64,000 bases of DNA from Paramacrobiotus metropolitanus. Lineage: Eukaryota; Tardigrada; Eutardigrada; Parachela; Macrobiotidae. The DNA is taken from assembly GCF_019649055.1 (NCBI RefSeq), contig NW_026570227.1, positions 2,728,001 to 2,792,000 on the forward strand, read 5' to 3'. Numbering within the stretch: the stretch's first letter is position 1; each line of letters begins with the position of its first letter. The position numbers were made by a program, and so were the translations under genes. Shown here piece after piece: positions 13,432 through 61,916 of this stretch. The notes beneath the pieces are model-generated. The model was given only the letters and a program-made list of their open reading frames with translations. It searched no databases and was not told the DNA's origin.

Positions 13432-15657
13432 GTGCGGGCCCGTACAAATTTACAAAGAAACAACTTGCAACACTAAGTATACCCTATTTTATAAGAAAAC
13501 TTACAAAATAGAAAGATCATCTGTCCTGTTAGGATTCCTTGATTAATTTTAAATTTAATTGCTTCTACTCATTGGTTAGCATCAAGAGAAATCCGAATTG
13601 TATTGGAGTCGATGGATATTATCAGTCACTTGACCGGAAGCTGTGTCCAGTTTGTGGAACGGACAGACGAAGAAGACTACATTAATATTCAGAAGGGACT
13701 GCAGTCAGTATTACATTGCTGATGAAGTGGAATTGTCCGGAGAAGAATTCATGTTTCGTGTTGATTGTAGATGCCTGTCAAACATTGGTCGCACCGGCGG
13801 AAAACAAACTGTAACGTATGCAACAGGATGTCTGAAGAATCACGGGGATGTGCAGCACGAACTGATGCACACCATGGGGTTCTTCCATGAGCATTCCCGA
13901 GCGGATCGCGACCAGCATGTTATTATCATCTGGGATAACATCGATGAAAGTTAGGTCATACATTTAATAATAAAAGAAAACTCCAAGCAGCAATTTATGA
14001 CAAGCTCTTCCATTGCCTGCAAATTGCATAATACTCGTATTTTCTATTACTTATATTCGCTTCTCGTTACATATTTCAATTACAACGCTACGGCGCTACC
14101 AGTTACTGCTGTTATTAATAGGTGTACACGTCTGACGAATAAAACAATTTTACATCATGCGTACTGCTGCGCAAATGGGGTACGCTGCGTTGTATTGACA
14201 TTAGAATTTCTTCGTTTTAGGCGACAAAGAGCAGTTCGCCATGCACGAATCTGGGAATACATACGGCCTTCCGTATGACTACGAATCGATCATGCACTAC
14301 AAGTATAACGCTTTTGCCAAGGACAGTAGTATTCCAACTATCGTGCCGAAAGTCAAGCGAGCTAAAATCGGTCAGAACGAAAATTTAAGCCCGCTGGATG
14401 TGGCGAGAATTTATCGACGTTTTCGGTGCCCGGTTCCGACAGCAAATTCGTTCATTGGTGAGCCTCTTTGTATAAAAGTTCTTGTTTTTAATGGTTGTTG
14501 AAGAAATTGTTTGCCGTGTGTAAGGAGGACCAAAGAAAACTGATTGCCCTCCAGTGTTGCTGGAAACTAGCGGTAAGAAAATGGTGATAAGAAAGCGGTA
14601 AGAAACTAACAATAAGTGACTAACGGTAAGAAATTAGTATTCTCATTGCAAAAAGCTGCCAACTTCAGTTGGCAGCCCACACAAAGTGCAGCACCATCGA
14701 ACGACCAAGATTGTGTTATTGTAGTGTAAATTCGTGTACAGTAATAGAAGGTGTCATGTAGGTATCATGTATTTTATTTTCTATACATCTAGAGAAAACT
14801 ACAAGAAGTCGAACATCTTCATTACCATCACGACCGCCGTCGGTTTTTGCGAATTCTGACGAGCCGTTTCCGACATTTTCTACTGCTCCGATGCGGGAGG
14901 AGGAATGCCAGGCCCAGATTACATCTAACTGTGAGCCCCCAATCGATTATCGGTCTTGTACAGCATTTAAAGGCTTAGTGATCAGGTGCACCTCCAATTC
15001 ACCCAGTACGGAGGAAATTGCTGCAATAACCACATCCATGTCCAAATCTCCGCTGCGCCCCATTTGGCTGCTCATGGCCGACGGACCCATACTCACGGCT
15101 AAAAATTTTCGAGCCATCCAAAAACAAATTATTGCTTTTGACTTGTCAAGCTGCGAAAATCCACGAGCACTAAGCCGTCTGCCGAATCTGCGGTTTAGTA
15201 ATCTTCTCGAACTGAATATAGTATCATGCGTAAATCTGGACATCAGGAAGGATGATTTGAGCTTCGCCCGTAAACTGAGCATATTCAGTTTTGGAAGTGT
15301 CTCATATCCTCGACGATTCGCACCCTGGAAAAGGACACCTTCACCGATCTGCCCGACTTACGCCTGATTTCATTGGAATACGGATCACAGCTGTATTCTT
15401 CGCAACGTGATTATATCGTCAATCTGCACTGTAACTGTGCATATGCGTGGTACCGGCGCTGGTGGCAGGATAACACCAAACTCCTCCGCGAAGCTAAGGC
15501 GGGTGATGTGTACACACTTACTGGGTCGTTTAGGAATGCCTTGTTTCGCCGAAGAGACTTGTTTTTGCCGGTTGACTGTGCATCGCCCCCATCCGAATTA
15601 TTCGCTATTCATTTCGAGCAGGAGGAATACTCGTTGAATGAGCCCGACTGTCCTTAA
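13432..15657 (+). pseudogene. Astacin-linker-LRR unit A, 5' truncated, with a frameshift
   Basis: Surviving exons: 13432-13476 (end of exon 3), 13580-13703, 13771-13949, 14221-14457, 14525-14572 and 14793-15657. They encode the astacin core, with zinc site [15 protein letters not shown], Met-turn SIMHYKYNAF, a short linker, then the LRR domain ending in the Cys/Trp cap LHCNCAYAWYRRWW and the stop at 15655-15657. Signal and propeptide exons are not found; a microsatellite lies in their place. The donor after exon 5 is GTTAGG instead of GTAAGA, leaving a stop if unspliced. A one-base loss near 15311 breaks the LRR frame, which resumes in another frame to the normal C-terminus. The last exon appears to start at the acceptor near 14792, because the acceptor used in unit C has lost its AG here. 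Probably a pseudogene, though much of the protease frame is intact. Confidence 0.75.
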
Positions 15658-19975: not shown

Positions 19976-20168
19976 GTCCTTATGTATCACGTCCAATTTT
20001 TTTTCCCAGAAAGAACAGTTTTAACTGTTACCGATGCTAATACTATTTTCGAATTCCGTAACGCACCATTTTTCAAGTAATTTAATTAACGATCGTATAG
20101 TCAACTTTCCGCAGTTAGCAGGCTGTTTGCAATAATTAATAAGTACTAATTACCAGCAAGTCAATATC

Positions 20169-21299
20169 ATGGCTTTAGACCCGCAAGCACTGCAGAATAT
20201 TCTTAACACCGTTAATGCCGCTTCCGCTCAGCAGAATGCAGCTTTACAGCAAAGCCTACAGAATAACGCTACTGCACATCAGAATTTATTGAATTTTTTG
20301 AATAACCAGAATGCCGCTGCAGTTACCCGTACAACATCTCTCGAAATGGGTGATTTGCCGAAGTTTGGTGGTTTTTCTTACGAAGACGCTCAGGACTTTT
20401 TAACACAGTTTGAGACGATGGCCGTTGCTAATAACTTCACACCAGCTGACAGAACCCGACATTTTGCGCTCTGTTTGCGGAATAACGCTCTTCGCTGGTA
20501 TACCGCAGAACCAGCAGGTATCACATGGCCAGACCTCCGATCTCAATTTTCAACAGCTTTCGGAAAAACTCGTTTTGAACTTGATCTTATGAATGAAGGT
20601 TGTCGTACATTAGCATTTACAGATCCTCGTACTTTTGTCCATCGTGTTCTTGATTACCTAGAAGCCAGTAATCCCGCAGCTACCGAAGCAGAAAAAACAG
20701 TTCGTCTCTTCGAAGCCTTGCCCCTTGAATTTAAACCGGCATTCGTGACTAACAGCCCCAGAACCGTAGCCGATTTTTTCAATCGTTTACGTGATGTGTC
20801 CGTTAAACAACAATACAAGTTCGCAATGCAGAATCAAAATTCGTCATATCAGGCGTTCAATAATGTTGCAGATCAGTCAAATCTTTTGTCGCTATACAGT
20901 CAACCGACAGCGCCCAGCTCTAATCAGATAGAGATTGTCGCTCATAACCTCATGAAAGGTTTGGATGAAAGACTGAAGCATCTTGCTGAACAAATAAAGT
21001 GTTTACAGGAAAATAACGAATTAGAGGGCAGTTACGATCTTTCTCAGAATTACTTGACGCGTAATGCGAACCGGTCAACCCTTCGACTCACAGATGCGCC
21101 AGGCCAGGTTAATGGATGTTCTAATTGCGGTAACTATGATCATCTATCGTACGCTTGCCCGTTTGGAGGTGGCCACTCTACGCAGGCACAGTATGCACAG
21201 GCAGAACAAGATTCTGAAGATCGTTATCCGATGTCATTCGGTGTAGCACAGCATCCGCCAACGACGCAGCAACTGGCTCTTAACACACCCGGTAAATGA
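20169..21299 (+). CDS. Gag-like protein of the LTR element (376 aa)
   Basis: Single open frame. A Gln/Asn-rich N-terminus is followed by the retrotransposon gag core (LPKFGGFSYEDAQDFLTQFE, then ALRWY and WPDLRSQFSTAFG) typical of Ty3-type capsids, and a C-terminal zinc knuckle CSNCGNYDHLSYACP (C-X2-C-X4-H-X4-C). It would form a particle and bind RNA. No downstream pol was seen; enzymes would have to come from another element. Family placement is from motif pattern. Confidence 0.8.
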   Translation: MALDPQALQNILNTVNAASAQQNAALQQSLQNNATAHQNLLNFLNNQNAAAVTRTTSLEMGDLPKFGGFSYEDAQDFLTQFETMAVANNFTPADRTRHFALCLRNNALRWYTAEPAGITWPDLRSQFSTAFGKTRFELDLMNEGCRTLAFTDPRTFVHRVLDYLEASNPAATEAEKTVRLFEALPLEFKPAFVTNSPRTVADFFNRLRDVSVKQQYKFAMQNQNSSYQAFNNVADQSNLLSLYSQPTAPSSNQIEIVAHNLMKGLDERLKHLAEQIKCLQENNELEGSYDLSQNYLTRNANRSTLRLTDAPGQVNGCSNCGNYDHLSYACPFGGGHSTQAQYAQAEQDSEDRYPMSFGVAQHPPTTQQLALNTPGK

Positions 21300-31448: not shown

Positions 31449-32463
31449 TACTTACCAGGTCACTATTTTCGCCTCCAAATTCAAAAAAATTTCTTTTTTT
31501 GTGAAAAGGTAGTAAACTAGCGTGGTATGATTAAAAACTATTTTCATCTGCAAAGGTCAAATGGGCGTGGCCAAACAGAAATTTAATTAACACAAAAGTT
31601 AGAAATTGTATTACCAGTGTATGTATTATAGACTCATAATGTGTCATGTACTTATGAACTATGACATTGTCGTACTAGCTGATCTATGAGTATACGGTGC
31701 GCCCAGGTCACCAATCCGCTTGTTTATCAGATGTTCAGTTGCAGTAACTTACTAACACTATGAATGTACCGTGCGCTATATAAGAACTTTGCCTGCATAA
31801 CGTTGAACAACACAACTGACACCAGTGTGTACGACGCTTCTTGTTTCTGTTCCCGTGACTATAGTAATCTCATAATATAAATTCTAACAACAAAGTACAT
31901 ATACTATTAGAATGTAGCATTAATTGCATTTATACCGCAATATCGTTTTTGCGGGCAATATACGTCCCGTAGATCCTTCCAAAGCCGATCGAGCATCAGT
32001 GTGTGTACTGTCAGCGCGCGTCCGGTGACCATCGCAGCAAAATTACGAATTTGAAATTTCAGAAATTCAACAACTTCCCTAATTTTAAGCTGCTTGTACG
32101 TCCATATGCCGAGGAGCTATTAAAAAGCATTTAGGTAAAAGATTTTTAAAAATGTATGATGCAGCAATTCCCAGGCAAGATGGGACTACCGGAAGCATTT
32201 TTTGGAGCTATGTGTTGCTTGACACCTGGAAGGGCCACCGGCTGGTCCAGTGGACACAAAATTAATATACTGATATTATGGTAAATGCCAGTACTGCATA
32301 ATAATGGTATGCAATATTATGTACTTATTTAATTTATGTTAGACCACGCCAAACTGAACTTTGCAGACAAAATATTTTTTAAGCGTACCACGGTAGTCTA
32401 CTACCTTTTTACAAAAAACGAAATTTTTTTGAATTTGGAGGCGGAAATAGTGCCCTGGTTAGG
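31449..32463. mobile_element. About 1 kb inverted-repeat element in the last intron of unit C
   Basis: Ends of about 125 bp (taccaggtcactattttcgc onward at the left) are inverted copies of 32336-32463. There is no transposase. The interior (31690-31880) has a core-promoter-like stretch, gcgctatataagaactttgc, and could include an old solo LTR, but no repeat ends confirm that. Confidence 0.65.
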
Positions 32464-32522
32464 AGAAACCTGGTTTTACTCTACCAGAGGACGAAGATCT
32501 TCACTAGCGTTAATTTTTTCAG

Positions 32523-33340
32523 ATGCTGATGAGCCGTTTCCGACATTTTCCAATATTCCATTGGGGAGCGATGAATGCCAGGCTCAGTCTACAACGAACT
32601 GTAAACCGGATTTTAGCTTTTTCAACATCGATTTGAAAACATGTAAATATAGAGGGTTAGTGATAAAATGCACCTCTATACCACCAAGCGCGTCTGAAAT
32701 AGCTGGAATTACCGCATCTATGTCTCAACCTCCGCTTCGACCAATTGAACTGTTTATTGCGGACGGCCCAGTTCTCACACCAAAAAATTTTGGGCTCATC
32801 CAAAAACAAGTTGTCATTTTTTATTTAACAAAATGCGAGAACTCCCGATCACTTGGCCGCCTACCGAAGCTGCGGTTTACCAACTTGCTGGAACTGAGCC
32901 TATCAGAGTGCAGCGATCTGGACATTAGAAAGGATGATTTGAGATTCTCTCGTAAGTTACGCATATTAACTTTGGGATCCGGATTCTATCCGTCAACGAT
33001 TCGTACGCTGGAAAAGGACACCTTCACCAATTTACCAGACTTACGCTTAATTTCTCTGGAATACCAGTCAGAGCTGTATCACGGGCAGCGCGACCACATA
33101 ATCAGATTGCACTGTGACTGTGCGTATGCATGGTATCGGCGCTGGTGGCAAGATAACACTGAACTCCTGCGCGAAGCGAATTCGGGTGATATATACTTAC
33201 TGAGTGGGTCGTTTATGAATAATCTGTACCGTCGGAAGGACGTGTATTTACCGGTTGACTGCAGCTCACCCCCATCCGGACTGTCGGGTATCCGTTTTGA
33301 GCAGGAGGAGTACTCGGTGAATGAACCGGACTGTCCTTGA
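32523..33340 (+). CDS. LRR domain exon of unit C, intact
   Basis: The only fully open LRR exon in the array, 272 codons. It begins ADEPFPTFS after the acceptor tttttcag. A Cys-containing N-terminal cap (DECQAQSTTNCKP) is followed by degenerate leucine-rich repeats (LLELSLSECSDLDI, FSRKLRILTLGSG, FTNLPDLRLISLEY). The C-terminal cap has LHCDCAYAWYRRWWQDN and LPVDCSSPPSG, a CxC-W pattern like LRRCT modules. It ends EPDCP then TGA. Predicted extracellular and disulfide bonded. Reads in frame from the linker exon of the same unit. Confidence 0.75.
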
Positions 33341-43509: not shown

Positions 43510-46257
43510 TTAGTGGGTATTTTTATTGTTATTGTCATCATCGTCTGACTCTATCCGGTCTTTCTTGTCAGGCTTTTTCTTAGCATCTGGTCCTCTCTTG
43601 GCGCCACCACTGGCTGCACTTGCCCCTCCTTGACGGGCTGCTCCCGTGTCCTTATACGAACGTTTTCTCTTCTCGCCGGGGATTTCTGACATTTTTCCAG
43701 CGAGACCTTTTCGAACAAACCGGTGAGAATTCAATAGAAAAAAGAAAACCGTGTAAAAATTTAATTAACACAACAGCTCCAAACTTGCACTGCTTTCAGT
43801 CACGCTGAATGTTTAAATCGACGCTTGACAGCATGCTGAAGAATAAACAAGCTGCCTGTATACAGCAGTTCTGCTGTCAAATTATATGGCAGTCAAGCCG
43901 GGTTGCACAGTGGCTTTAAGTTCATAAAGGCTATGCAGAATACAGTATTTCTTACAGTATGGCTAAGATCACAAATAATGCAAACCTGGATTTCCAAAAG
44001 ATTCCTGCAGTTTCATCAGGAAATGCTGCGCAAGGGACGATAATTCTGCCACTCGCAAGTCCTTTATGCCGTCCCAGCACCACTTCTTCCCGCGATACTG
44101 CAACGACGACCGCGGATCCGCTGTCTGTGTCGCACAAAGAATCTAGCGCAGCACAAATAGTCTGTCTTCGAAACAGCATGACAATCGCTCACATATTGCG
44201 AAGAGTAAAATAATCGATAATACAAAGAAGCAAAGGAGTAAATTTTGGAAGAATTTTGATATTTACGATCAAAATGGAGTTTAAAATTCATTTCTGCGCG
44301 CTGAGTACGTTGTGCAACTTTGGATGCCTGAGTACCTCTACTAGGTAGCTCTCAAAATACATATGCAGATATTTGTAAAATTAATACAAGCCATTTTGAT
44401 TGGAGAAAGACAGTTTCAGCTAAAGACAAAAGTTCTAAACAACGATGATGACAATCGTTTGCAATAGTACGTCAGCAACGTTGGAGCAGTGTTTTTTTAT
44501 AACAACTCACCTTGCAAGCCGTACTGGTTAAGGGATCAGCCGTATTCCCTTTCAACCACTGCGCTAACGTTTGCTGTTTTCGACCACTCGTCACTGCTAA
44601 GCCGGCATTCATCCCTTCCCATAAAGCGCCATCGAAATCCGCATTAACCTTGATGCGCGGCGTCGTAATCTCCATGACCGGTGTCCAGTGAGAAACGTCG
44701 CCTTCGGTCCACTCGTTGGTGTAATCCAGATTTACCTCAAAGTTGATCAACTGCAGGGTGTCGCAGGGAAGACCTCGGCACGCTGCCGTGAAATCACCCC
44801 AGCGTACGCCAACTTTGTTTCTGTATTCACCGACAGCCGTTTCCGCATCTGCTCGGTGAAACAGACATTCTCGGCGGTCGTCCAGCAGATAGCTGTGGTC
44901 ACAATGCAGACAGCAACGAGCGCCAATGATCCGAATAACATCCAGTCGAATGTTGCCGATCTGCTGGGTAATATACTGCACCATGTCCAGTATTTCCAGG
45001 GTAACTGTGTCTCTCAGCAGCCACGATGGATCGGCCACCGTTAAAGTTTTTGTGGATGGGCGCAAACATTTAAAGATAGGAGCCAGTGTACAGTACAGAA
45101 GGCGATCCAGACGAACTGTCTCGTCTTCGCTCCAGGCAATAACAATATTAGCCGTCAGTATGGGCACCTGCAGAATGTTGTCCCACATGGAACACACAAT
45201 GCGGAGAGAGTTCTGCGTTAGTGTGTTGAGATGCGAGAAGACCTCCGTCCAAAGTTCCACCAATAGCATTGCACTGTCTGACTCGACTTCGGCGACCGAG
45301 ACGGAAGATGCGGGCGCGCGCAGAAGCCCGGTCAACCATTTCATAAAGCGTCTGGAAGGTTCGTGCTGATATTTCTGGAAAGCAAAGCTAAAACTGTGAT
45401 TTAATGCGTCCGAGTACAGAGACAGCCTGGTGCAGAGACAGACAGGTTCGCTTGCCGCGTAAACAATACGCCATCTGTTCTAGTTAATACCATAATTATC
45501 TCCGCATATTTGCCTTAATATGACTTGTACCAGTAATTAACGTATTCCGAAAGGTAGTAAGTGATTTGTTTTATTCTGTATGTTTGATAACTTACCACCG
45601 AATTCTCCTCCTGGATCCTTTCCATCTCTTCAGAGATATTTCGAAGATGAACGTACCAGAGCCGTCCATCCACGACATCCACCAGAGAAAACGCAAAGTA
45701 ATCAGCAGCGAAACCGGAATCTGGCGCATGAATGTGTAGTTGGTCTCTCAGTTCTTCTGCGGACACTGAGCCACACCAGGCGGGCAACTGGACACTGACT
45801 TTCTCGAATTCATCCCTCTCAGTAAGTCTAAAACAGTGCAGAGGCAATCAGTTCAAAGAAAATTTCAAACATAGTTTTCTGTTGCCTACCGACTGCTCAG
45901 GTCTCTCTCGCGAACTCGTTCGTCCGGGACGATATCCGTGTGCACCGCCTTGTCCTTGTCGACCCACTGGACAACTACCACGCCGTAATGCTTGCGTAAG
46001 TGCTCAGCCGTATACCAAATCCACGGATCGCCGGAATTCTGGCGCATCAGCACTTCGGTGGTAGTGGACTTTGCCGAAGGATAACGATCAGGTGAGAAGA
46101 TTTTACTGCCGAAGGGGAGGAGACGGCGACCTTCGGCGGAACTTAGAAAGTCAACAAGGAACCCATCATCAGTCACATCTACAACGCGTCCGTGGCGACG
46201 CAGACCGTCATCACCCACGACATCGACGCTGTTGGCTGTGTAGATTCCGCACAACAT
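43510..46257 (-). CDS. F-box-like protein, copy 1 (about 605 aa)
   Basis: Exons 46257-45890, 45827-45596, 45374-44511, 44142-43986 and 43706-43510; junction phases 2, 0, 0, 1 agree. The N-terminal module has MLCGIYTANSVDVVGDDG and RHGRVVDVTDDGFLVDF (chromo/Tudor-like SH3 barrel look, unassigned) and WIWYTAEHL. The second has HIHAPDSGFAADYFAFSLVD. The third exon begins an F-box-like helix set, LLVELWTEVFSHLNTLTQNS followed by RIVCSMWDNIL, and a long unassigned substrate-side region. The last exons encode DLRVAELSSLAQHF and a basic/acidic low-complexity tail (KKKPDKKDRIESDDDDNNN). F-box proteins usually recruit substrates to SCF ubiquitin ligases; that role is inferred. The exon 4 donor differs from copy 2: GTAAGC has become GAAATC and a GTTTGC nine bases on keeps the frame. 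Confidence 0.7.
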
Positions 46258-46499
46258 GGCGAAAGACTACCAATAGGTTTGCTAGAGCAAAAATATCACC
46301 ATATATTTTCTTATTCATAAAAAAATTGAAAAATACTAAAAAACTACTCGTAGACTCGGTACTTGCCGTTTTAAGAAAACACTGAAAATTCAGTCGATCA
46401 GCTCTTTGTGGGTCAGTGGAGGCCACTGGATGATCACGTTGTAAAAGCTCTGTGAAACGCCGCCTGTACGCTTGGGATTTGCATGTAGTGCCTTCATTT

Positions 46500-46540
46500 A
46501 ACCTCATTGGTGGATTTATGCCCACTGTCTAGTCTTGGAT
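46500..46540 (-). promoter_or_regulatory. Conserved 5'-flank block of F-box gene 1
   Basis: cattggtggatttatgccca followed by ctgtctagtctt is shared with the 5' flank of copy 2 at 50020-50050. Its inverted CCAAT-like core (ATTGG) and conservation amid diverged flanks suggest a regulatory element. Inference only. Confidence 0.35.
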
Positions 46541-47111
46541 TTTTTATTTCACGCAGTACGGAAACGTCCCGTTTTAAATGCGACCTATTTTCCATTTACC
46601 ATACAGGCCGGTTGGGTCAGGGCAGAATGCGGCGATTTAGAATTGCTTTTCGCCTGATGTTTGACCTTGTGTCACATTTTTCCTTTCCTATGACCGGCTC
46701 CTGCATCTGTGTGATATTAAAATGGTCTGATATCCAATGCAAAATATTTTGTACACTTTGTTCTTTTTCGTCGAGAATAGACAGAAAAGACAGTTTTGTT
46801 TGATAGACTAAATTCAGGAAAAGTGAGAACTTTACGGTGACACCAAAAGTCAAGCGGTGTTAAAGTTATAAACACGACTGTCTAAAAATACCGCAAATAT
46901 GAGAGTAATCAAAGCACAAAGTTAACGATGTCAGCCATCTTAAAATTCCGCCACGTTTCAATGCTGCTGGGCGCCTTGCCCCCTATGGCACCTCGTGCGA
47001 ACAGAGAAAAAATAAAGAAGAAAAAAGGGATTGATGACGACAGCGGCCGCTGTAGGAGAAAAAAGAACAGCAGGGAAAACGGGAGCCGTGGTGCATCCAT
47101 GGAGACTACAT

Positions 47112-49707
47112 CTAATCGGTAGTTTGATCGCTGTTGTCATCGCCGTCCGACTCCATCCGGGCCGGCGTTTTCATAGCACCTGGTTCGCCCTTGGCGCCAC
47201 CGCCGGCCGTGTCTGCTTCATCCTGAAGAGCGTCGTCCGTGTCCTTACTCCAGCGCGTTCCCTTGTCAATTTCGGATTCTTCAGGGACACCTTTTTCTAA
47301 AAACCAGGCGAGAATTCAAGAGCAAAAAACATGGAAATTAGCGCAACAGCTTTGCAGTAGGCCTTTGACTTGTTACATTGAAAATAGTTGCAGTTGCAAC
47401 GCATTGTGCAGGACACGGTGTTCCTTAGGACCTAGATCGCCGGGCTTACCGAAAAATTCCTGCAGTTGTATCAGGAGATGCTGCGCAAGGGACGATAATT
47501 CTGCAACTCGCAAGTCCTTCATGCCGTCCACGCACCTCTTTATCTGGCGATAATGCAACGACGGGCGCGGATCCGCTGTATGCGTTGCACAAAGTATCTA
47601 CCACAGAGAAAATATTATGAGGCCTAAACATCAAGAAAACAAGAAGAGAAATAACATAAAAGAAATTAAGATGAATTTTGAATAGTTAATAAAAAGCGGA
47701 GTTCCGAACTTTTTCCTAAGCGCTCACCACCGCCGGACATCGATACGCTAAGCAAACCGGGATGTCTGAGTATCGCTGGACAGCCTTTAAGGTAACTAGA
47801 TATTTACAAGACGTTTCATTTTAGAAAAAAATATGAACCGAAGAGGAAAGTTTAGAACCTTCTTGTATTGTTGCAATCGTTTACGGTACTGTTTTCGGAG
47901 AGTTCCCACCTTGCAAGCCGTACTGGCTACCACTGGGTTGCCACCACAACCGTCCCGTTGGAACCACAGCGCCATCTTCTGCTGCTGTTGACTACTCGGC
48001 ACGGTTAAACCGGCATTCATTGCTTCCCACAATGCGCCATCGAAACCCGCATTAACCTTGATGCGAGGCGTAGTAAGCTTCAGGACCGGTATCCACTCAG
48101 AAAGGTCGTCCACGGTCCACTCGTTCATGTAATTCAGGTGTACATCAAAGTTGACCAACTGCAGCGCGTCACAGGGAAGACCTCGGCACGTCGCCACGAA
48201 ATCATTCCAGTATTTACCGACAGCGGCTCCTGCCTCTGCTCGGTGGAACAAGCATTCACGGCGGTCGTCCAACAGGTAGCTGTGATCCCAGTGCAGACAA
48301 CGAGAAGCTCCAATGATCCGGATGACATCCAGTCGAATGTTGCCGCTCTGCTGGGCAACATACTGCACCATGTCCAGTATTTCCTGAATAACATTGCCTG
48401 CCAGCAGCGATGTGTCGGCCGCCATTAAGGACTTTGTGGATGGGCGCAGACACTTGAAGATAGGAGCCAGTGTACAGTACTGCAGGCGATCCAGACGGAC
48501 GATCTCGTCTTCGCTCCATGTAATGACAATATTGGCCGTCAGTATAGGTACCTGCAGAATGCTGTCCCACGTGGAGCACACAACGCGGAGAGAATTCTGC
48601 GTTAATGTGCTGAGATACGAGAAGACCTCCGTCCACAATTCCAACGATAGCTTAAGAGTGTCTGATTCGCGGCCCGCGACGGAAGATGCTGACGCTCGCA
48701 AAAGCCTCGTCAACCATTTGAGAAAGCGTCCGGAAGGTCTATTATAATAGTGCTTAAAAATAAAGCTTAGACTGCGATTAAATGCCTTTATTAATGGGAT
48801 TGTGTGTTACCAAGTATCAATACAGACTTAGTTCGCATGACACGTACTTAGTAGAAGTCATTAATGATTATTTCCGTAAATGTTTATAACGTATAACTTT
48901 CTCCGCACATTTACCTTTAATATGACTTCTAATTATCGTTCTGAGGAAGGTGAGAACCTAGCGAGTAAAAACAATCCGAGAACCTGCTTCTCTTTGATTA
49001 TGTTTGTTCGCTAACTTACCACTGATTTCCCAATCAGTTCTTCCATTTCGACGGAATTCGGACGGTGGATGTACCAAAGGTGTCCATCCGCGACATCCAC
49101 AAGAGAAAACGCAAAGTAATCATCAAAGAAACCGGAATCCGGTGCGTGAATGTGAAGTAGGTTTCTCAACTCCTCTGCCGACATGGAGCCGCATTCCGCC
49201 GGTAATCGGACACTGTACTTCCTAAATTCTTGTCTCTCAGTACTTCTACAAAAGTGCAGGTGGCAGTCAAGTGCAAAATAAACATACACCAAAGCTTTCT
49301 GGTGCCTACCGGTCGCTCAGCGTTCTCTCGCGTACTCGATCATCTGGAACGATATCCGTATGCGCCACTTTGTCCTTGTCGACCCCCTGGACAACTGCCA
49401 CGCCGTCCTGACTGCGTACGTACACAGCCGGATGCCAGATCCACGGATCGCCGGAATTCTTACGCATAAGCACTTCGGTGACCGTGGGCCTTGGTTGGCC
49501 AACAACGGTAAAGTCTTGTTCTTCCGGATGACGGCGTTTAGGTGTGAAGACTTTACTGCCGAAGGGGAGGAGACGACGACGTTCGGTGGAACCCAGAAAG
49601 TCCACGAGGAACCCGTCATCCATTACGTCCACAACGCGTCCGTGGCGAAGCAGACCGTCATCACCCATGACGTCGACGCTGTTGGCTGTGTTGATTCCGC
49701 ACAACAT
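47112..49707 (-). CDS. F-box-like protein, copy 2 (599 aa)
   Basis: Exons 49707-49310, 49245-49020, 48752-47910, 47597-47450 and 47296-47112, with the same intron phases as copy 1 (2, 0, 0, 1), no internal stops, and total length divisible by three. Modules match copy 1: MLCGINTANSVDVMGDDG, HIHAPDSGFFDDYFAFSLVD, F-box-like LSLELWTEVFSYLSTLTQNS then RVVCSTWDSIL, then DLRVAELSSLAQHLLIQLQE and an acidic tail ending MESDGDDNSDQTTD. Exon 1 has about 15 extra residues after FTPKRRHPEEQ relative to copy 1. Predicted substrate adaptor of an SCF-type ligase; the first two modules are not assigned to a family. Neighbouring copy 1 is a tandem paralog. Confidence 0.75.
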
Positions 49708-52309: not shown

Positions 52310-52500
52310 TTACGCACTAAATGTTTTGACCTTCAGGTCGATGGGCTTGCGACAAATGGGGCACAGGCTCAGTTCTTGCGCGCAATCCATACAGGCTACC
52401 ATATGGCCGCACGGGACGAATGTCACATTTTTCGGCCGATCCTCACATATCCGACAACAATCGACATCGTGCGATCCGCTTGAACCACCTTCGTTTGCCA
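52310..52500 (-). CDS. MIB/IAP-type RING finger exon
   Basis: A 63-codon exon behind the acceptor ccacttag (phase 1), ending in a stop. It encodes a C3HC4 RING: CRICEDRPKNVTFVPCGH, then CMDC and CPICRKPI, the spacing seen in the C-terminal RINGs of Mind-bomb, IAP and neuralized-type ubiquitin ligases. It has no start codon of its own, so it must be joined to an upstream exon. The nearest upstream exons on this strand belong to the clathrin-like gene, whose last exon offers a phase-1 donor AACC|GTACCA at 52620. It could be an alternative C-terminus of that gene or the last exon of an unrecognised gene. Confidence 0.7.
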
Positions 52501-52587
52501 CTAAGTGGTGTAAAATTAGGTTTTAGAAAGATATTGAAACTACAAAATTAGGTTATTGACAGAAATCAGTGCGGGCAGATTCTGTAC

Positions 52588-55500
52588 TTATGTCCCGAAT
52601 TCGAGCTTCGCTATGGTACGGTTGCTCTTCATGCAGTCGTGCGTCCGCGATTGGTTTATCCAACGAGATTCGCTAGATTGGTTTCCCGCTAGAGCCCGGA
52701 TCACACAAACCGATGGATCTTTGGTGGTGGATAGCGCGCCCTCCAGGAAGCGAATAAGCAACTCCCATTCAGCTAAATAAAATTTGGTATTATTCACACG
52801 GATGATCCTATCTCATCTCAAAAACCAGGAAATAAGAAACTCAAGTCGACTAACCGAACTTCCTGTCCAACGGCACCAACGAGCAGACGAGTTTATATTT
52901 CGTAAATCGGCCCGCTTCTACGAGATATCGCAGTGCCAGAACCAGGTCGCCGGATGCCAGGTAATCTTCGCCAACTGTCGCCAGTAATTCCGGATCGCGG
53001 CTTAAGAAAGCCAGTTGTTTGATATCGCCGAGGCCTTCGTTTTTGTTAGCCACAACCAACTGGATGATCATGGTGACAAAAAGGACTTCAGAAATTTTTT
53101 AATTACAAAGATTGTTTCAAAATGTAAAAATGTTGCTAAAATAACTACAAAAAAGCTGATTTTTTTGTGCAACAGACCTGTGCGGCTTCTTTCCAACACT
53201 TTCCCCTGACCGGAATGTCCTTAGCAAATCGCAGCATTCCTCCTTGAACGAGCACGTCGGCAACTACGCACGGATCATACGTATATAACCGCTCGCCGAA
53301 TAACTGTTGAAATTTCTCTGTAGGATATCCACTTCTTAATAAAGATCGAACGGCATGCTTCTGCAGAAATCTAAGGAGAAGAAATCTTCAGGTTTGTCAT
53401 GCAGGTTGGTTTATATTTTTGTTACACAAATGAAACTGACCATACCGGAGTTGGTCTTTATTAACGGTTTTTGTAAGTAGTCGGCGGATGAAGGTCTGGG
53501 TTTCGGATATTAGATCCGTTTCGGCCATAGTTTCAATGAGCACAGCCAATTGTTCGAAATCGTTGGAGGCGGCTTCATAGCCGGCTTCCGGTTGGCCAAC
53601 CATAATGTTAACTAGGTAGGAACGCTTTCCGTTCGCCGGACTCAAAACGGTTTCCCACATGTGTCGACTGCGTAATTTTAACAGGTAATTGAACTGACGC
53701 TTGAATACGCCAAGTTTGCCGCTCAGCTGCAAAACAGAAGTCAGCATTATCAAAAGGTTGAAAATAGTTTCAAAAATAATATAAATTACACTAATAGTAG
53801 CATTTGAAGGAGTAACTGAAGATAAAATTTCTGGATTAAGACAAAAATGTTGAGTACCCGGATGAAATCTTCACTAAGGCGCCGTTCTTCGTACACAGTC
53901 AGAGCTTTAGTCAGCCAGTTATTCTCTTCGCACCATTGACCAACCGCAACAGCATCAAACAATTGATCGTTTCTAAAAAGCAAAGTGGCGCATCGCCCAA
54001 ATACAGGAATTTCTCCATAAACAAAAGATTATTTCAGGGCATAATGTTGTGTGCGAAGTAATACTAAGCAATCTTCCGCACATGATGACCTACGTGCGGT
54101 ATCTTACTATATACTCGTGTGATTCGTTGTGGCAGTTACTTAAGCATATGCTCCAGCTTTTCGCCTTCCATAGTTTCGATGTACATCTTCACCAGTTGAG
54201 AATGCACCCCTTCATCTGGAACGCTCTTTCCCACAAGGTATTCCAAAAAGCTGACCTTTGTTTCCCTGTTGAAAAGTGAGGGAAGTGCAAATACCAGATC
54301 ATTTTAAAGCCGGATCTGTTGGCACCGAGTGGCCGAAAACTTCTTCTCTTGGCTTCGCGTACCGATTCCCTTTCTCCTCTACCGATTGCAGGACGTCAGG
54401 GTAGACGCCTTGTAACATGTTGACCGTCAATCCAAGGTCCAAATCCATCTCCAGTGCAGCCAGATCGGCGTTATCGTCTAGAAGAGTTTCGATAATCAGG
54501 CGCAGCTGCTTCCTCGCTTCCTGTGAAGGATTATACCGGACGGTTTAGTGAACGATGCTTAGCAAGTAGCGGGCTTGCATATGAGAACGATAAAATTTAT
54601 TCAAACCATTCAAACCAGTACCTCATCCGGCAGTTTTTCCAATAAAAGGTTCAGCCGCACCGGCCATCCGTTGGCAGGGTGTAAAACCTGGCAGTGGCAG
54701 CTGCCAATGGCACTGCCAGTGGCATGGCATGCGATAAAAAACTGGCAGATGCCGCATAAAATGTGGCACCACGTACAAGGTGGTTTGGAGAGTTTGGTGT
54801 AGTGCTTATCCTTGAAACTCTTGCTTGAATTCAGTTAGGCTGGATAGTGCTAACAGCATGTGCCGTGCACAAAGTGCGTAAGTTCGCGACGGTATGTAAT
54901 GAAATTTTAAAAGGTCAACTTTACATCTTGCTGTTAGCCCGAAGTACCGTAACAAAACAATTAAGAGCGCTGCTATAAGACGTTCGTATCACGTCCTGAA
55001 TGCACAAGGCTGAATGAAATAGAAGCATGCCGGCTTTAATATAGAGTACATAAGTCATAACTAGAATGGCCGCAATTTAACGTGGAGCTTCAATCCGTTA
55101 ATTAAATATGGCAGAATTTTAGGCACGGTACTGGAACGATAGGTGATTCCGCATACAAGCCGCTTAGGCAGGCTGTAACCTGGGTTTTACCCTGTGTAGA
55201 AATAATTTAAGAAACCATGCCTACAGGGCGTTTACAAGCGTAACTGCATGATGTTTATCGGCGCCGCTGTGATTGCAGTAGCAACTACGTTGTAACAAAA
55301 ATCAAGTTGTCACCGTAATTAGATCTCGACACTGTTATCGCACTACACAAATAAGGTACACGTCATCAAAGTTGTCTGATGGCTCCGAAATACGCAATAC
55401 GGTAATTATAATGTAACCTGCCATGGCGAACTTTGTGATGTTGCTTGGTATTCGGTAACAATACCCTCAGACTATGAGTGTTCGTAGGACCAAAGTATCC

Positions 55501-57153
55501 AACAATCGCTCCTGATGTCCGAACGCTTTAACGTTTTTGTTTTTATGGTGCGCAAGTTATATTCTTCGTAGATCTGACGTTTTTATGTGTTTCTGTTTTT
55601 TTCCACGTTAAAATGTAAAGGCATTTAGAAATTAATACTGTGCGCCAGCTACATAACAGCATGAATGCTTGTGAGTAGTGCAAAACTATTAACGTGTTGT
55701 TAATTACATCATCTCAGTTAGTGTTAGAGCCTTTATTTCGCAATATATCGTACAATCCAGCTTTGCTTACAACTACAACCAAATGAAGAATATATTCCAA
55801 CTAGCATGATCGAGTTAAGATCGTGCATAGCACACCCATGGTACATGTAAATACCGAGCATTATTAGTGTTATGCAGCCCTGCGACTAAAATCGTTGCCA
55901 CTCTAACTAACTCAAATTATCCATACAGTACATAATGACGCCGATAACTTGTTAGTGCAGTATTTGCAATAAACTTGACGCGTGCCGGTGTAGTGTATAA
56001 GTAATATCACGCTCCCTGTCTAAATTTTCAAGCAAATCTGTACAAAATCTATTGATTGTAGGACCTTTTAAATAATCCGTGAACCACCAAATTTTTTTAT
56101 TGAGGCTGTAAGACGCATATTAAAAATACACGGTGTAGTGTGTTCAGACTTATTAGAAGGTTTAACGTAAAAAACTGCCATATGTCAATAATAAGTACAA
56201 GTAAGGCAAAAATAGGTTGAACAACAATTTAAGTTGCTTAATGTAAGTACTACTTACTTAAACTGGCATCGTAGTCGAATAAGTACTCGAATACAGTACC
56301 GGGAACGCAGATACGGACTGATACGAATTTATTTTTACGTAGCGCGTCACTGTGATTCTACGATTCCTAATTATCCAGTTTAAAAGAGTCCACATTTCAT
56401 GAACGTGACAGTGACAGCAAGTGCTGGCATTGTTCGCCGTTCGGTACTAAAAAAATTAGCGCCAGAAGGAAGAATTAGAGTCAGATGTAGCTCTTCAACG
56501 CAACTCGGCAGCAAGGTTTAACGTACGCACACCGCACAGTTGGATATATATATTTATACCGGCGCCCCGGTTCAGCTGCTTGTGTCGCATGGTTTATATT
56601 CGCCGTTATAATATTATACAACGGCAAAATAATCAGTTAGCAAACTAGAAGATAAGGCTAGCTGTTTGTGGAGCTACCGTGCGTATGTAAAAGTGCGCGT
56701 ATAAATGGCGCCGGTTTTTTTTGGAATAACAGCAAAGTTCATGTGCAAGTATACGGCGCACATCTGATACGAACCAGTGACCGATACTGTGAAACACTCC
56801 ACCATGTACCATCTTGCTTACTCTGGCCTGTAATTGGTAGTCAACAAAATCGCGGCTTCACTGAATAAACTGAAAATCTTTTTCTTTGCAGACCGTAATG
56901 TTTGCAAGCAGTTGTTGCACTAGAGTTTCCTTTCCGGTCGAAACTGTTTGTAGTCCTTAATACTACTGATGGCTTGCAGTTGTAGTGCTATTGGAAATGT
57001 TTAATTAGCATTACACTGCTTTGCAATATGAATATTTCAATCACGTACATGGCTGTAGAGGTAGGAGCACTAGTATTATTACCAATAATCATTTTGTTAT
57101 TAGTGTTTCTATTGGTAAATATGCCGTTTTGTGGTCGCTATATGTAAATTATT

Positions 57154-57206
<53 letters not shown>

Positions 57207-60200
57207 TGTTTTCAAACAGTATAAACCATTGGCCTAATCAGAGGGCCACGGTTGTTTTAACATTTGATCTAAATTAGCCGAAACAGGTAACGTTATGTAC
57301 CTAAACACTGCGAAATATGTGAAATTAATGCACAAATTAATACCCAATTGTATAACTTGTGTATATAATATGTGACATTAATGTATAAATTATTAATTAT
57401 AATTGTATCACTTGTGCATACACTACAAAAAAATACTAATTCAATTTGGGTATAATCATTGCCACTCTTCAGTGGTGCAACGCCATACAGCATGATCTGT
57501 TTATTCGTTTCTGAATTATTAGTCTACAGGAGAGTGGCAATCGTACAAATTTTAGTTTAAAATTACTGTTTATAAATCTGCATACTGCAATACACTATTG
57601 TGTAACTTTCATATTAACAATGTTTAGAAACAAGAACGTCAGTTTTGCTTCTGGTTTGACAGATGCCTAAGTACGTGGTGGCTGACCTTAACTTATTGAA
57701 ACAATAATTGTCATAAACTAAGCCACCAAATGAGCGTGCGGAGAAACTTATTGTTAGCTTAATAAATGCTAATGTTGACAGCGGCATTTGTCGTTGAGCT
57801 GGACTTAATTAAACGAAAAAAGCCCTATTCTCAGCCGCAAGACATATTCCAGCGGTGTGCGTCTTAAATCGGGAAGAACCGCGAATGTCTTTTAAATGAG
57901 CGTTTTTATCCTTTTGTATTGTATCTGTGGTACTTTGCGCAAAAGGCAATTGCTAGTGACCTTTTGAAATTTTTTATCCCGGAACGTACCTGCGAACTTT
58001 GTGCATGGCCAATACCGTTAAAACAATAAAGGAAAACTGCATGTATATTGGCAACAGTTTCTACGATATACAGTAGAAGTATACGTAGTGCCACATTTTA
58101 TGGGGCATCTACCAGATTCTATCGCTTGCCAGTTGCCAGAGTCTCCAGTTTTTATCGCATGCCATGCCACTGGCAGTGCCATTGGCAGCTGCCACTGCCA
58201 GGTTTTACACCCTGCCCCATCCGTTGCGTATTCTGTGCGTAACGAGTTTGACGATGAGACCGTATCTAATGTACAGCCTTTCCACCAGTTCTTCCACGGC
58301 ACGTTGCACGCCAGGTGCCACTGTTTCGGACAACAAACAATCTATTACGCTCTCCGGGTGTAATATCTTGCTCTGGTTTGTAATAAAGTGAAACTCGAGG
58401 ATTTGTATGAGTCCATGTTGCAGAGCCATCTGCACAAATCATGCACGCGATAGAATTACGTACAAAGTAACTTAATATACAATGAGCCTGCAAGACTCAC
58501 TTTGACGAGTTTCAACAAAGCGCTTTCCGACATCTTTTTCGGCGACAAGGACTTCAGAAACATAGGCAGACCTAAGCACAATAACCCGATTATTAAGGTA
58601 TTGCTCTGAGCTTTAACGCTAATATCATACTTCTCGGACGCAGAAGACTGCCCACATTACAAATTCCGACAAAAAGATGCTTTGGTCTTGTTCCATATTT
58701 TGTCCCATAATGGGAAATTGAAATTGTATTGAAACCCGGTTTTAAATGCAGCTCAGCAAAAGGTACGCATGAAGCGAAGTACACATTCACTGCACGTCTG
58801 AATCTTCGCGTTGAAAATCCGTACTTTCAGATCTGGTTTAAAATTTAATTTTAATAATAATTTGGGTTTTAGCAATTCCGAATTTTCGCGCACTGTTCCC
58901 GTATTACAATTGCGCCAGTCGCCCACAGACTGTAATCAACCAATGTACATAGTGCAACGGCAGTGAATACAGAATCAAATAAGTTGTGCTTACCATCTTT
59001 GATCGTGTTGCGCGTTTTGCGCTCAAACATGGTGATCAATACATCCAATCCAATTTTGTCGCTTAACTTCATGGCGAGATGACCGGTAAGCATAAGGTCA
59101 TGTGGTGTGGATGAAACGGTATCAACAGCCAACTCGAACACATCGACCGCCTGTTCCGCCGATAAATGCACTACATTCAGCCTGAGAAAGGTGCAAAAGG
59201 TCGCAAAGTCGACCGACTTCATGCCCCGTACAACATGGATCACTCGCATAAACGTGCCGTTCTCCATTGGAGCACTTAACCGCAGGGCGTATTTTCCGGC
59301 TTCCGTTGGAAGATTCTTGTCTAGCAAAGTCGCTATCACATGGTCAAACGACAGACTGACCCCGAATACCTTAAAAGAAAAGCCGTTTTTGTTCATGAAC
59401 GTTGCTGTTTGTTATTCGTTTTTTGGATAATTTCAGCTTAACGTCTTAAATGAAAGGACACCGTATATGGTTACCAACCGAAACTTTGCTTTCGCGTGTT
59501 CTTAATGACTTTTAAATGGTTCTACCTCATTCTAAAGCCGTATCTGTACGATTTGCTGAGTAGCGGGCAAATTAAATTAGAAAAAAATTTTAAAAGTGCT
59601 TCGTGCATCAAAAGTGCATTAAATTTCGATCTTCTTGAACTTAGCTGTAAAAGGCGGCGGCCGCAAAACTACATGAAATTAAAAATTCTGAACCAGAAAT
59701 CTCACCGTAACACTAGCACTAGCCTGTAATTTTTGACTTTGAAAAAATGACTTTGGAAAAAAATTTTGGAGATTCAGTTAAAAGCTTGAAAAAAGCAACA
59801 GGCGGTAGTTATGCGATCTTAACAGCGCGGGTGACAGCCTGATTTGTGGTGACCGAAAATGCATTCGAGTTTATCGTCCATTTTATTGCATTGCATGTCA
59901 GCAACTGATGCTGCGCGCGCGCCGGGCACACTCAAGCAGTTTTTTTAAATCATGGGGCACGAATTAGTCAATTTTAAAACGAAATAAATCGTAAGTGGAA
60001 CAAAGTGGAAGTTCGAAGTGCGGGAAGGAAGTTTCGATGGATGCATACAAACCTGGTGCTGTGTACCGGGAAGTGGCATATCGTGTCGCTGTCGTATACA
60101 TCACCTGAAACTGGTGTTCACAGAAATTCTCTTACAGGCTTGTAAGTGAATAACTTACTATTCCGTCACTGCTAATGACAGTTAGGCCTCCGGAAGACGA

Positions 60201-61916
60201 CGCGCTATGCACAACACAAATGGTGCTTTCGTCATCGGCTAACGTCTTGGACGCTAAGTGGCACATGTTCCGATAGTCAACCAAGTGGACACATCCCATT
60301 TTGGTGGTAATAAATGCCAAGAAATGATCATCCTTTGGATGTACCTATAAAAAACTCTTTTTGAATGCCGCTTATAAATAGCTCGTACATAATGTAATTT
60401 TATTCAGGCAATAACCCATTAACATAATAACAACCCCGCGCTGATAGACACTAATCATTGTTATCATTTCCAACTTTCGGGAGTGCATTCAGTGTGTCCA
60501 AGAGAACAAGTCGCACTGCATATGACAACAGCCAGACTAAAACGTTATCTAAAGAACCAAAACAGTACTTAATTCAGCGCCGCTAGTATTAGTACTGTAC
60601 TGACACGATATTAAGGGTCAGTAAAATCCCCTGGACCGCCGGCACTAGGCGTCGGCTTCATTGATGTCAAAGGAACCGACAACTAGCGCGGGCGGTCCAG
60701 GGGATTTTGCTGACCCTTAATATCGTGTCAGTACAGTACCGTTACGGCAATTGGAAAATCCTTCGCTGTTTCCTTGGCGTCCACTGGGTATAGAATTTCA
60801 AGAGTAGAGTTTCTGGTATCCGAAAGGTCGTACGTGTACGCTGACTGACGAAGGTAACGATATTTAAGAAGTATGCGGGGGTTGTTGTTGCTGGTGGCAG
60901 TGTCGGCGATTAAAATAGCAACAGGTTGGCCGCCGTACGTCGGTATGGACGGTACAAAAGCCGCTGCGAATCCTGAAAAGGTTGTAGAGGCTATGTCACC
61001 CATATGAAATACTTCCACGAGGCCTTTTGCTTGGTCCACCTATATCGTACTAAAGTTAATTAATATTATCAGAAAGTAGGTTTAATTGACTGTGGTGACT
61101 TTTATTCAGTGTTTATGTTTTCCCGTTTAAAATGTGTTTTACGGCACTCATCAGTCAAATGCACATGGGAAAAACGTGCATACATCAAGCTTAACCGCTG
61201 TCAGAAACGAGCAGTTCTTCGAGCGGTGTAGCGGGTAATCAGTGACGCTGTAAGTTCCAGCAACATCCTCCTTGCGTAGACAACTCCAGTTAATGTTCCA
61301 ACTTTCGACATCCATGTGGGTAATTTCCTTATCCGTAAGAAATGCAACGCAGCTCGAATCTATCCATCTAGCAAAATCCACCAATGACGCAATGACTGTC
61401 TCTTTTTCCAGGATGAGCACCCGCAGTACGTTCGCAGCATCTGCAGCATAATTTAGATCACACAACAGCCGCATAATCATGGTAAAGGTTACCTCTCCAC
61501 TATAACACTAACCATATGTGCAATAAACGCAGTTTGGCTATTTACTTATGCAATATTTTCGGAGATAATTTTATTAAAATTGCTGTAAGCAGTAGCGCAT
61601 TTGTTGCGGTACTCACTGTTTGCTCACCGTGAATAAGACAAAACTCGCCATTTGGACTGCGAGTGGCGCTGACAATACGGTCTCGCCTGCGGTATCGTTT
61701 GAAGTCCTTGCGGGTCACTTGAGGGGGTGAAGCGGCCAGATCGAGAAAGAACAGGCTAGGGTTAGACCAGAGATCTCCCTGGCTGACAACCGTAATGCAG
61801 TGCTCTGATGCCATCGTAATGCTCTTCCCACTGTTCCATTTCGAATGAATCAGTTCTGGAATCTGTTGCGGCAAGCACTCATAATCATGGGTGACAGTTT
61901 GTAATACATGCGCTTT
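52588..61916 (-). CDS. Divergent, shortened clathrin-heavy-chain-like protein
   Basis: Fourteen phase-matched exons: 61916-61628, 61440-61196, 61039-60740, 60344-60159, 59369-58994, 58571-58501, 58429-54622 (split by a transposon), 54520-54363, 54265-54140, 53972-53858, 53726-53446, 53370-53178, 53059-52855, 52772-52588. About 1,000 residues; animal clathrin heavy chains have about 1,675. The first four exons follow the clathrin terminal beta-propeller (SITMASEHCITVV; VLRVLILEKE; GLVEVFHMGD; DFPIAVT; DDHFLAFITTK). Later exons follow the leg helical repeats; VEEKGNR, FLEYLVGKSVPDEG and WCEENN line up with clathrin VEKRNR, LPWLEARIHEGCEE and KYCEKR. From recalled sequence, roughly residues 500-860 and the C-terminal trimerisation region have no counterpart. 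The start exon is unresolved; 62040-61969 (MRKYLKAQKR...) is in phase. It may be a non-triskelion coat-like protein. Confidence 0.7.
54673..58216. mobile_element. Non-autonomous MULE inserted in a coding exon of the clathrin-like gene
   Basis: 3,544 bp flanked by a perfect 9-bp target duplication, CCATCCGTT, at 54664-54672 and 58217-58225. Inverted terminal repeats of about 100 bp start ggcagggtgtaaaacctggc. Nine-base target duplications and long inverted repeats are typical of Mutator-like elements. No transposase is present; the interior is AT-rich and holds an AAT microsatellite. The two exon halves on either side (LIVKLVTHRIRNG and WPVRLNLLLEKLPDE) join perfectly once the element and one target copy are removed. 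Confidence 0.85.
57151..57206 (+). repeat. (aat)n microsatellite
   Basis: About 18 uninterrupted trinucleotides within the MULE interior. Confidence 0.9.
59855..59945 (+). repeat. Dispersed repeat, copy 3 (weak)
   Basis: Resembles 5265-5350 around gcaac-gatgctgcgcgcgc. Intronic in the clathrin-like gene. Confidence 0.35.
60593..60738. mobile_element. MITE abutting a splice donor of the clathrin-like gene
   Basis: 146 bp with inverted repeats of about 48 bp (tactgtactgacacgatatt onward), almost identical on both sides, and TA at each outer edge. The exon ends at 60740, so on the minus strand the donor GT at 60739-60738 uses the TA base of the insertion. The next bases of the intron (ACTG) are transposon sequence. 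Confidence 0.85.

Follow-up and report, generated by a model that had tools for sequence, protein, structure and literature searches.

The idea that a transposon can supply an intron is already established. Tc1 in C. elegans and Ds in maize are reportedly removed from transcripts by splicing near their ends, which is said to have been demonstrated with RNA. A second kind of removal, SOS splicing, reportedly recognises DNA transposons in worm and human cells by the pairing of their inverted repeats, in a primary paper said to have appeared in Nature in 2026. Introners are carried by 175 of the 3,325 genomes in one survey (PMC9860276), to which animals and land plants contribute only two groups, both of them animal; the introner families there have median lengths between 30 and 654 nt and number from 5 to >2,000 copies in a genome. 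An Aureococcus family described there carries both splice sites, and the 12 bp that it adds include 8 bp from the duplication (PMC9860276); a further source states that introners may carry weak splice sites (PMC13326754). For SOS splicing in metazoans, a 2026 review (PMC13247085) describes transposable elements leaving mRNAs, with ligation by RTCB and an endonuclease that is not identified. Here we analyze a 64,000-nucleotide stretch of the tardigrade Paramacrobiotus metropolitanus (contig NW_026570227.1, positions 2,728,001 to 2,792,000; hereafter the window, with positions counted from its first letter), in which a probably recent, non-autonomous DNA transposon with terminal inverted repeats (TIRs) appears to interrupt an internal coding exon of a clathrin heavy chain-like gene.

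This element compares with each of the described systems in part. Like Tc1 and Ds, it is an exonic transposon that might be partly removed from the pre-mRNA via sites near its ends. With introners it shares TIRs and a target duplication, a possible donor and acceptor close to the ends and, as in Aureococcus, the addition of a whole number of codons, whereas it is represented by one 3.5-kb copy in 64 kb. With SOS splicing substrates it shares the character of a DNA transposon with inverted repeats in the exon of an animal gene. What sets it apart from all three is that its removal is a prediction from DNA sequence alone. Our literature search found the locus named nowhere, which is no claim that it is unpublished, and the excerpted text of a Helicoverpa transposon paper (PMC7764229) has no bearing on the mechanism.

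Young exonic TIR insertions in non-model animals are natural test cases of gene survival, which could proceed by exon skipping, by splicing via the terminal repeats (the seed of an introner) or by repeat-guided mRNA excision, each predicting different junctions. For the insertion described here, we favor a mostly broken allele, of lost or reduced function, with a probability of about one half, as transcripts reading into the element would meet a stop after three element-derived codons. It is on the unlikely side that the full-length 3.5-kb element silently leaves the mRNA, either by repeat-guided excision or through splice sites in the repeats, as a near-neutral case of a transposon becoming an intron. 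Silent removal, if true, would be a natural example of that transition; should the allele prove to be null, the insertion is an ordinary one.

The element and its classification

The element, its repeats and its target site duplication occupy the following positions.

54673-58216, no strand: TIR DNA transposon of 3,544 bp, apparently non-coding (from inverted repeats, the list of open reading frames and Pfam)
54673-54740, plus strand: left arm of the terminal inverted repeat, 68 nt, perfect (arm-to-arm comparison)
58149-58216, minus strand: right arm of the terminal inverted repeat, 68 nt, perfect (arm-to-arm comparison)
54739-54775, plus strand: left subterminal continuation of the inverted repeat, 37 nt, 89% against 58082-58118
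58082-58118, minus strand: right subterminal continuation of the inverted repeat, 37 nt, 89% against 54739-54775
54664-54672, no strand: left copy of the target site duplication CCATCCGTT, 9/9 identical
58217-58225, no strand: right copy of the target site duplication CCATCCGTT, 9/9 identical

The outermost 68 nt of the two arms are 100% complementary. A reading of this DNA made before our analysis, which we call the original prediction, had reported a perfect 9-bp target duplication and long inverted repeats, and both are present. A G adjoins CCATCCGTT on both sides, so that a duplication of 10 bp is also possible. The 37-nt subterminal pairing is offset, the right arm having about 30 bases more than the left. 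The element ends in GGCAGGG (5'-GG), and its interior has a G+C content of 37.6% compared to 55.9% in the repeats. Within the 64-kb window the 16-nt end motif, with up to 3 mismatches allowed, occurs only at the two ends of the element. Exact searches returned 0 matches for one element pattern in genome_contigs and 0 for two patterns in viral_contigs, prokaryotic and viral collections that carry little weight here.

The perfect duplication and the 68/68 repeats suggest that the insertion is young. They would also fit a possibly polymorphic insertion, in which case our sequence would be that of a single haplotype or rare allele, with the element absent from the allele that is expressed. This reading draws on one sequence only, however, and we consider it the least probable of those weighed here.

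No open reading frame (ORF) longer than 76 aa lies wholly inside the element. With stops masked, none of the six frames of 54776-58081 matched Pfam at E up to 1, and among the 10 of 19 internal ORFs of at least 50 aa that were scanned there were two sub-threshold matches only, with E values of 0.024 and 0.13. A transposase, whether of a MULE or of Merlin (DDE_Tnp_IS1595), was not found by Pfam in this copy of the element, and Rfam gave no match at gathering scores.

Mutator elements and MULEs make duplications of 8-11 bp, typically 9. Maize Mu is described as having repeats of ~215 bp and duplications of 9 bp (PMC2774946), and Merlin elements as having a terminal 5'-GG, repeats of 24-462 bp and duplications of 8 or 9 bp (PMC8101967). 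Our element resembles Mutator and MULEs in its 9-bp duplication and long repeats, although the repeats are shorter, and it resembles Merlin (IS1016-like) in its 5'-GG, its repeats of 68+ bp and its 9-bp duplication. It differs from both groups in that neither transposase was found in it, and structure alone cannot separate the two. The element is probably a recent, non-autonomous TIR DNA transposon that is MULE-like or Merlin-like. The label MULE in the original prediction is compatible with the duplication and the long repeats but unproven, and Merlin fits equally. We also considered hAT membership on account of the CAGGG ends. In hAT elements an 8-bp duplication lies directly outside CAG...CTG ends; here, the octamers that flank CAGGG and CCCTG are not the same, and the 8-bp register fails.

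The interrupted exon and its host gene

52588-61862, minus strand: divergent clathrin heavy chain-like host gene, multi-exon, as modelled (gene finder with hand-set exon C, Pfam, PDB)
58217-58429, minus strand: exon C, 5' part (boundaries hand-set; open frame and codon use)
54622-54672, minus strand: exon C, 3' part including the duplication, with the donor GAG/GTACTG at 54621 (boundaries hand-set; open frame and codon use)

The model of the host gene comes from a small gene finder of our own making, with the boundaries of exon C set by hand. It spans about 61862-52588 and is only tentative over the stretch 60158-58648. Across the empty site, exon C amounts to 85 codons (255 nt) that are open in one frame only. 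In this frame the 213 nt before the insertion have a codon score of +5.1 and the 42 nt after it one of +4.0, and the latter score is reached by only 4 of 2405 stop-free 42-mers from the element interior. Over the last 40 codons before the insertion a second frame scores alike (4.3 vs 4.2). The downstream donor of exon C leaves phase 0, matching exon D.

These results provide fair evidence, based on the open frame and codon use rather than on homology, that the element inserted in a coding exon, and they agree with the earlier claim of an exon whose halves match across the transposon. We also considered that the insertion hit a native intron rather than an exon. This would accord with exon C itself having no detectable homologue and with a cryptic phase-0 donor at 58285, but the idea is weakened by the short 3' part, which has an open frame and coding-like codon use, and by the phases, which fit exon D.

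The identity of the gene comes from its downstream part. When exon C (empty site) is joined to the exons that follow it as far as 52855, the resulting 444 aa match the Pfam Clathrin family (PF00637) with an E value of 5.4e-19, and 4 of the 5 PDB matches of this model are clathrin heavy chains (best E 1.5e-11, residues 121-357). The insertion point falls at about residue 71, outside the clathrin-matched stretch. Elsewhere, PDB matches were at chance level, with 6 for the exon A frame (all E 0.29 or worse) and one for the exon C-E model (E 0.2). Pfam yielded nothing at E up to 1 for the upstream model of 326 aa, whose resemblance to an N-terminal propeller is by eye only. Judged by these matches, the host is probably a divergent clathrin heavy chain-like gene with recognisable leg repeats and an upstream part that Pfam does not match.

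Two observations speak against a mostly broken allele. The modelled exons, from 61862 to 60159 and from exon C downstream, are open with no decay visible, and the perfect duplication and 68/68 repeats give no insertion date. A caveat to the first point is that the gene model was built to be open and that a young insertion would leave no decay. The original prediction had the rest of the gene open; this is true of the modelled exons, but the direct join of exon A to exon B has stops in all three frames.

Splicing routes and pairing of the repeats

58205-58213, minus strand: proposed donor AGG/GTGTAA, with last exon base 58211 and first intron base 58210 (weak on two matrices)
54687-54702, minus strand: proposed acceptor CTGCCAG, with first exon base 54687 (TGCCAG/GTTTT; AGs 13 and 25 nt upstream)
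58205-58207, minus strand: in-frame TAA met on read-through, after the element-derived codons GGC AGG GTG

Besides meeting this TAA, transcripts could end early within the element, which has four AATAAA and two ATTAAA motifs on the gene strand. To compare the ways in which a transcript might be rescued by splicing, we summed the site scores of six donor-acceptor routes, all of which keep the frame without a stop. The highest sum, 6.07, belongs to the join from the exon B donor (58500) to the exon D acceptor (54520), which skips exon C (-255 nt). The exon B donor joined to 54687 gives 3.63, the cryptic phase-0 donor 58285 joined to the exon D acceptor 2.26, the proposed donor joined to exon D 1.72, and donor 58285 joined to 54687 -0.17. 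The proposed pair, 58211/54687, has the lowest sum of the six (-0.71).

These sums make exon skipping the likeliest spliceosomal rescue, ahead of any in-frame use of the repeat sites. It would cost 85 codons and leave a shortened protein; the length of exon C is a multiple of three, which keeps the preceding frame, both sites are native, and the cryptic donor at 58285 offers a further in-frame join to exon D. However, the upstream boundary of exon B is not settled by the gene model, a protein that has lost 85 residues from the helical leg may be inactive, and with six of six routes in frame, the frame alone does not discriminate. We consider rescue by skipping unlikely.

The original prediction was that the element may behave as a ready-made intron. 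Ordinary GT-AG splicing would then take out the stretch 58210-54688 at the cost of 10 added amino acids. Its arithmetic is correct: splicing 58211 to 54687 keeps 6 + 15 + 9 = 30 bases, reading NGWGRVLHPANGWP, in frame and without a stop. Three in-frame, stop-free GT-AG pairs lie within 68 bp of the ends, and this pair is the best of them. The intron would measure 3,523 bp, and the modelled introns measure 71-395 bp, whether all 12 or the 10 firmer ones are taken.

The strength of the two sites was judged with a generic splice matrix and with a second matrix built from the introns of the gene itself, left out one at a time. The set of 12 introns consists of 10 kept from the 20 of the gene finder, the other 10 being dropped as flanking tiny, upstream or element-internal exons, and of two added by hand (58993-58648 and 58500-58430). 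The former was made by skipping an 8-nt model exon and is wrong as drawn (stops in three frames); the 10 firmer introns are the set without it and without 53177-53060. A caveat is that the comparison is biased against the proposed sites, as the finder picked most introns with the same generic matrix. On this matrix, the donor has a score of -1.34, lower than in all 12 modelled introns and 44th among the 214 GTs of the element. The acceptor, at 0.63, exceeds 3 of the 12 and is 21st among 172 AGs; with the 10 firmer introns, the donor is above none and the acceptor above one. Among minus-strand sites of the window, the donor beats 77.5% of 4,039 GTs and the acceptor 88.7% of 3,434 AGs. On the matrix from the gene's own introns, both sites fall below all 12 introns and all 10 firmer ones, and the donor beats 25.1% of the 4,039 GTs. 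The direction of these tests is the same for 10 introns as for 12.

Other features of the sequence bear on the same sites. The AGs upstream of 54687 are not disqualifying by themselves, since 3 of the 10 native acceptors in the model are likewise preceded by an AG no more than 30 nt away. Better-scoring donors and acceptors inside the element, such as the donor CAG/GTACGT at 57989 (score 4.13), make cryptic exons possible. The gene finder missed exon C, entered the element in another frame and began an exon at the acceptor 54687.

The pair was chosen after the fact, and its chance expectation was estimated by replacing the repeat with dinucleotide shuffles or with random 68-mers from the window, in 2000 trials each. 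At least one in-frame, stop-free GT-AG pair appeared within 30 bp in 1017/2000 shuffles and 743/2000 random 68-mers, and within 68 bp in 1749/2000 and 1088/2000, respectively. Pairs with both sites equal or better appeared within 30 bp in 243/2000 shuffles and 32/2000 random 68-mers, and within 68 bp in 823/2000 and 92/2000. The pattern is unusual for random sequence and common for a repeat of this CAG-rich composition. It is also true, as had been claimed, that the same end sequence read in both directions gives a donor and an acceptor, but this follows from the inverted repeats of the element.

Predicted RNA structure bears on both ways of removing the whole element. When the two ends are joined and folded, the arms (135 + 103 nt) are predicted to form a duplex of -200.1 kcal/mol. 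Both proposed sites would fall within a predicted 68-bp RNA duplex: the donor and acceptor bases have an unpaired probability of 0.0, and the pairing of the donor G to base 54679 has a probability of 0.99998. When the ends are folded separately, the donor GT has an unpaired probability of 0.14 and is followed by open bases, while the two bases of the acceptor AG have 0.09 and 0.03. This accessibility of the donor makes it conceivable that U1 might bind while the far arm, 3.4 kb further on, is still to be transcribed. Taken by itself, the left end (178 nt) shows no unusual stability (z -1.09).

Removal as a ready-made intron is consistent with the in-frame pair and its rank among the repeat-to-repeat pairs, with the 32/2000 random 68-mers, with the generic-matrix percentiles, with the finder's own use of 54687, and with the accounts of an Aureococcus family of like geometry (PMC9860276) and of weak sites in introners (PMC13326754). 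Against this stand a donor below every modelled intron on both matrices and an acceptor likewise on the gene's own matrix, the two upstream AGs, the shuffled repeats that equal or beat the pair, and the closed sites of the joined fold. The in-frame pair of the original prediction exists, but its sites are weak and better native routes are available; we regard a ready-made intron as possible but poorly supported, and quite improbable.

In the modelled fold, the duplex argues against ordinary use of the repeat splice sites; it favors repeat-guided excision, provided that the host is capable of it. In that mechanism the repeats would pair, a non-spliceosomal nuclease would cut, and RTCB would join the exon halves. 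The strength of the duplex and the metazoan excision and RTCB ligation described in the review (PMC13247085) speak for it, but the arms lie 3.4 kb apart and their pairing is predicted only. We consider repeat-guided excision doubtful, though somewhat better supported than the ready-made intron.

Other features of the gene and the window

The same gene contains a near-perfect, MITE-like foldback of ~148 bp at 60592-60739, with ends GTAC...GTAC; within the window its end motif occurs only at its own two ends. The foldback begins exactly at the predicted donor ACG/GTACTG of the intron 60739-60345. A duplicated GTAC or TA may have kept this donor, which by analogy recalls introner splice sites recruited from duplications. 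Directly downstream of the modelled gene, on the same strand, lies a RING finger exon (52313-52522; PF13920, E 5.6e-16), which could belong to the clathrin-like gene as a C-terminal exon or form a gene of its own.

Several further features were noted in the window. Astacin-like repeated stretches, recognised by eye, occupy 13000-40200 on the plus strand, and astacin-like gene models, likewise judged by eye, suggest an animal host. A family of similar ORFs (DEPFPTFS...), also found by eye, occurs on that strand at 14762, 32333 and 39336; Pfam gave nothing at E 0.01 for the member scanned (32333-33340). A 387-aa ORF at 20136-21299 looks by eye like a retroelement gag, with a zinc-knuckle-like CSNC...YAC motif, and has no Pfam match at E 0.01. 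Two similar long ORFs lie on the minus strand at 44472-45479 and 47796-48806 (44472-48806), and the one of the pair that was scanned, 44472-45479, has a sub-threshold F-box match (E 0.0069). The window also contains a 7tm_1 receptor (Pfam E 1.1e-22), which points to an animal host.

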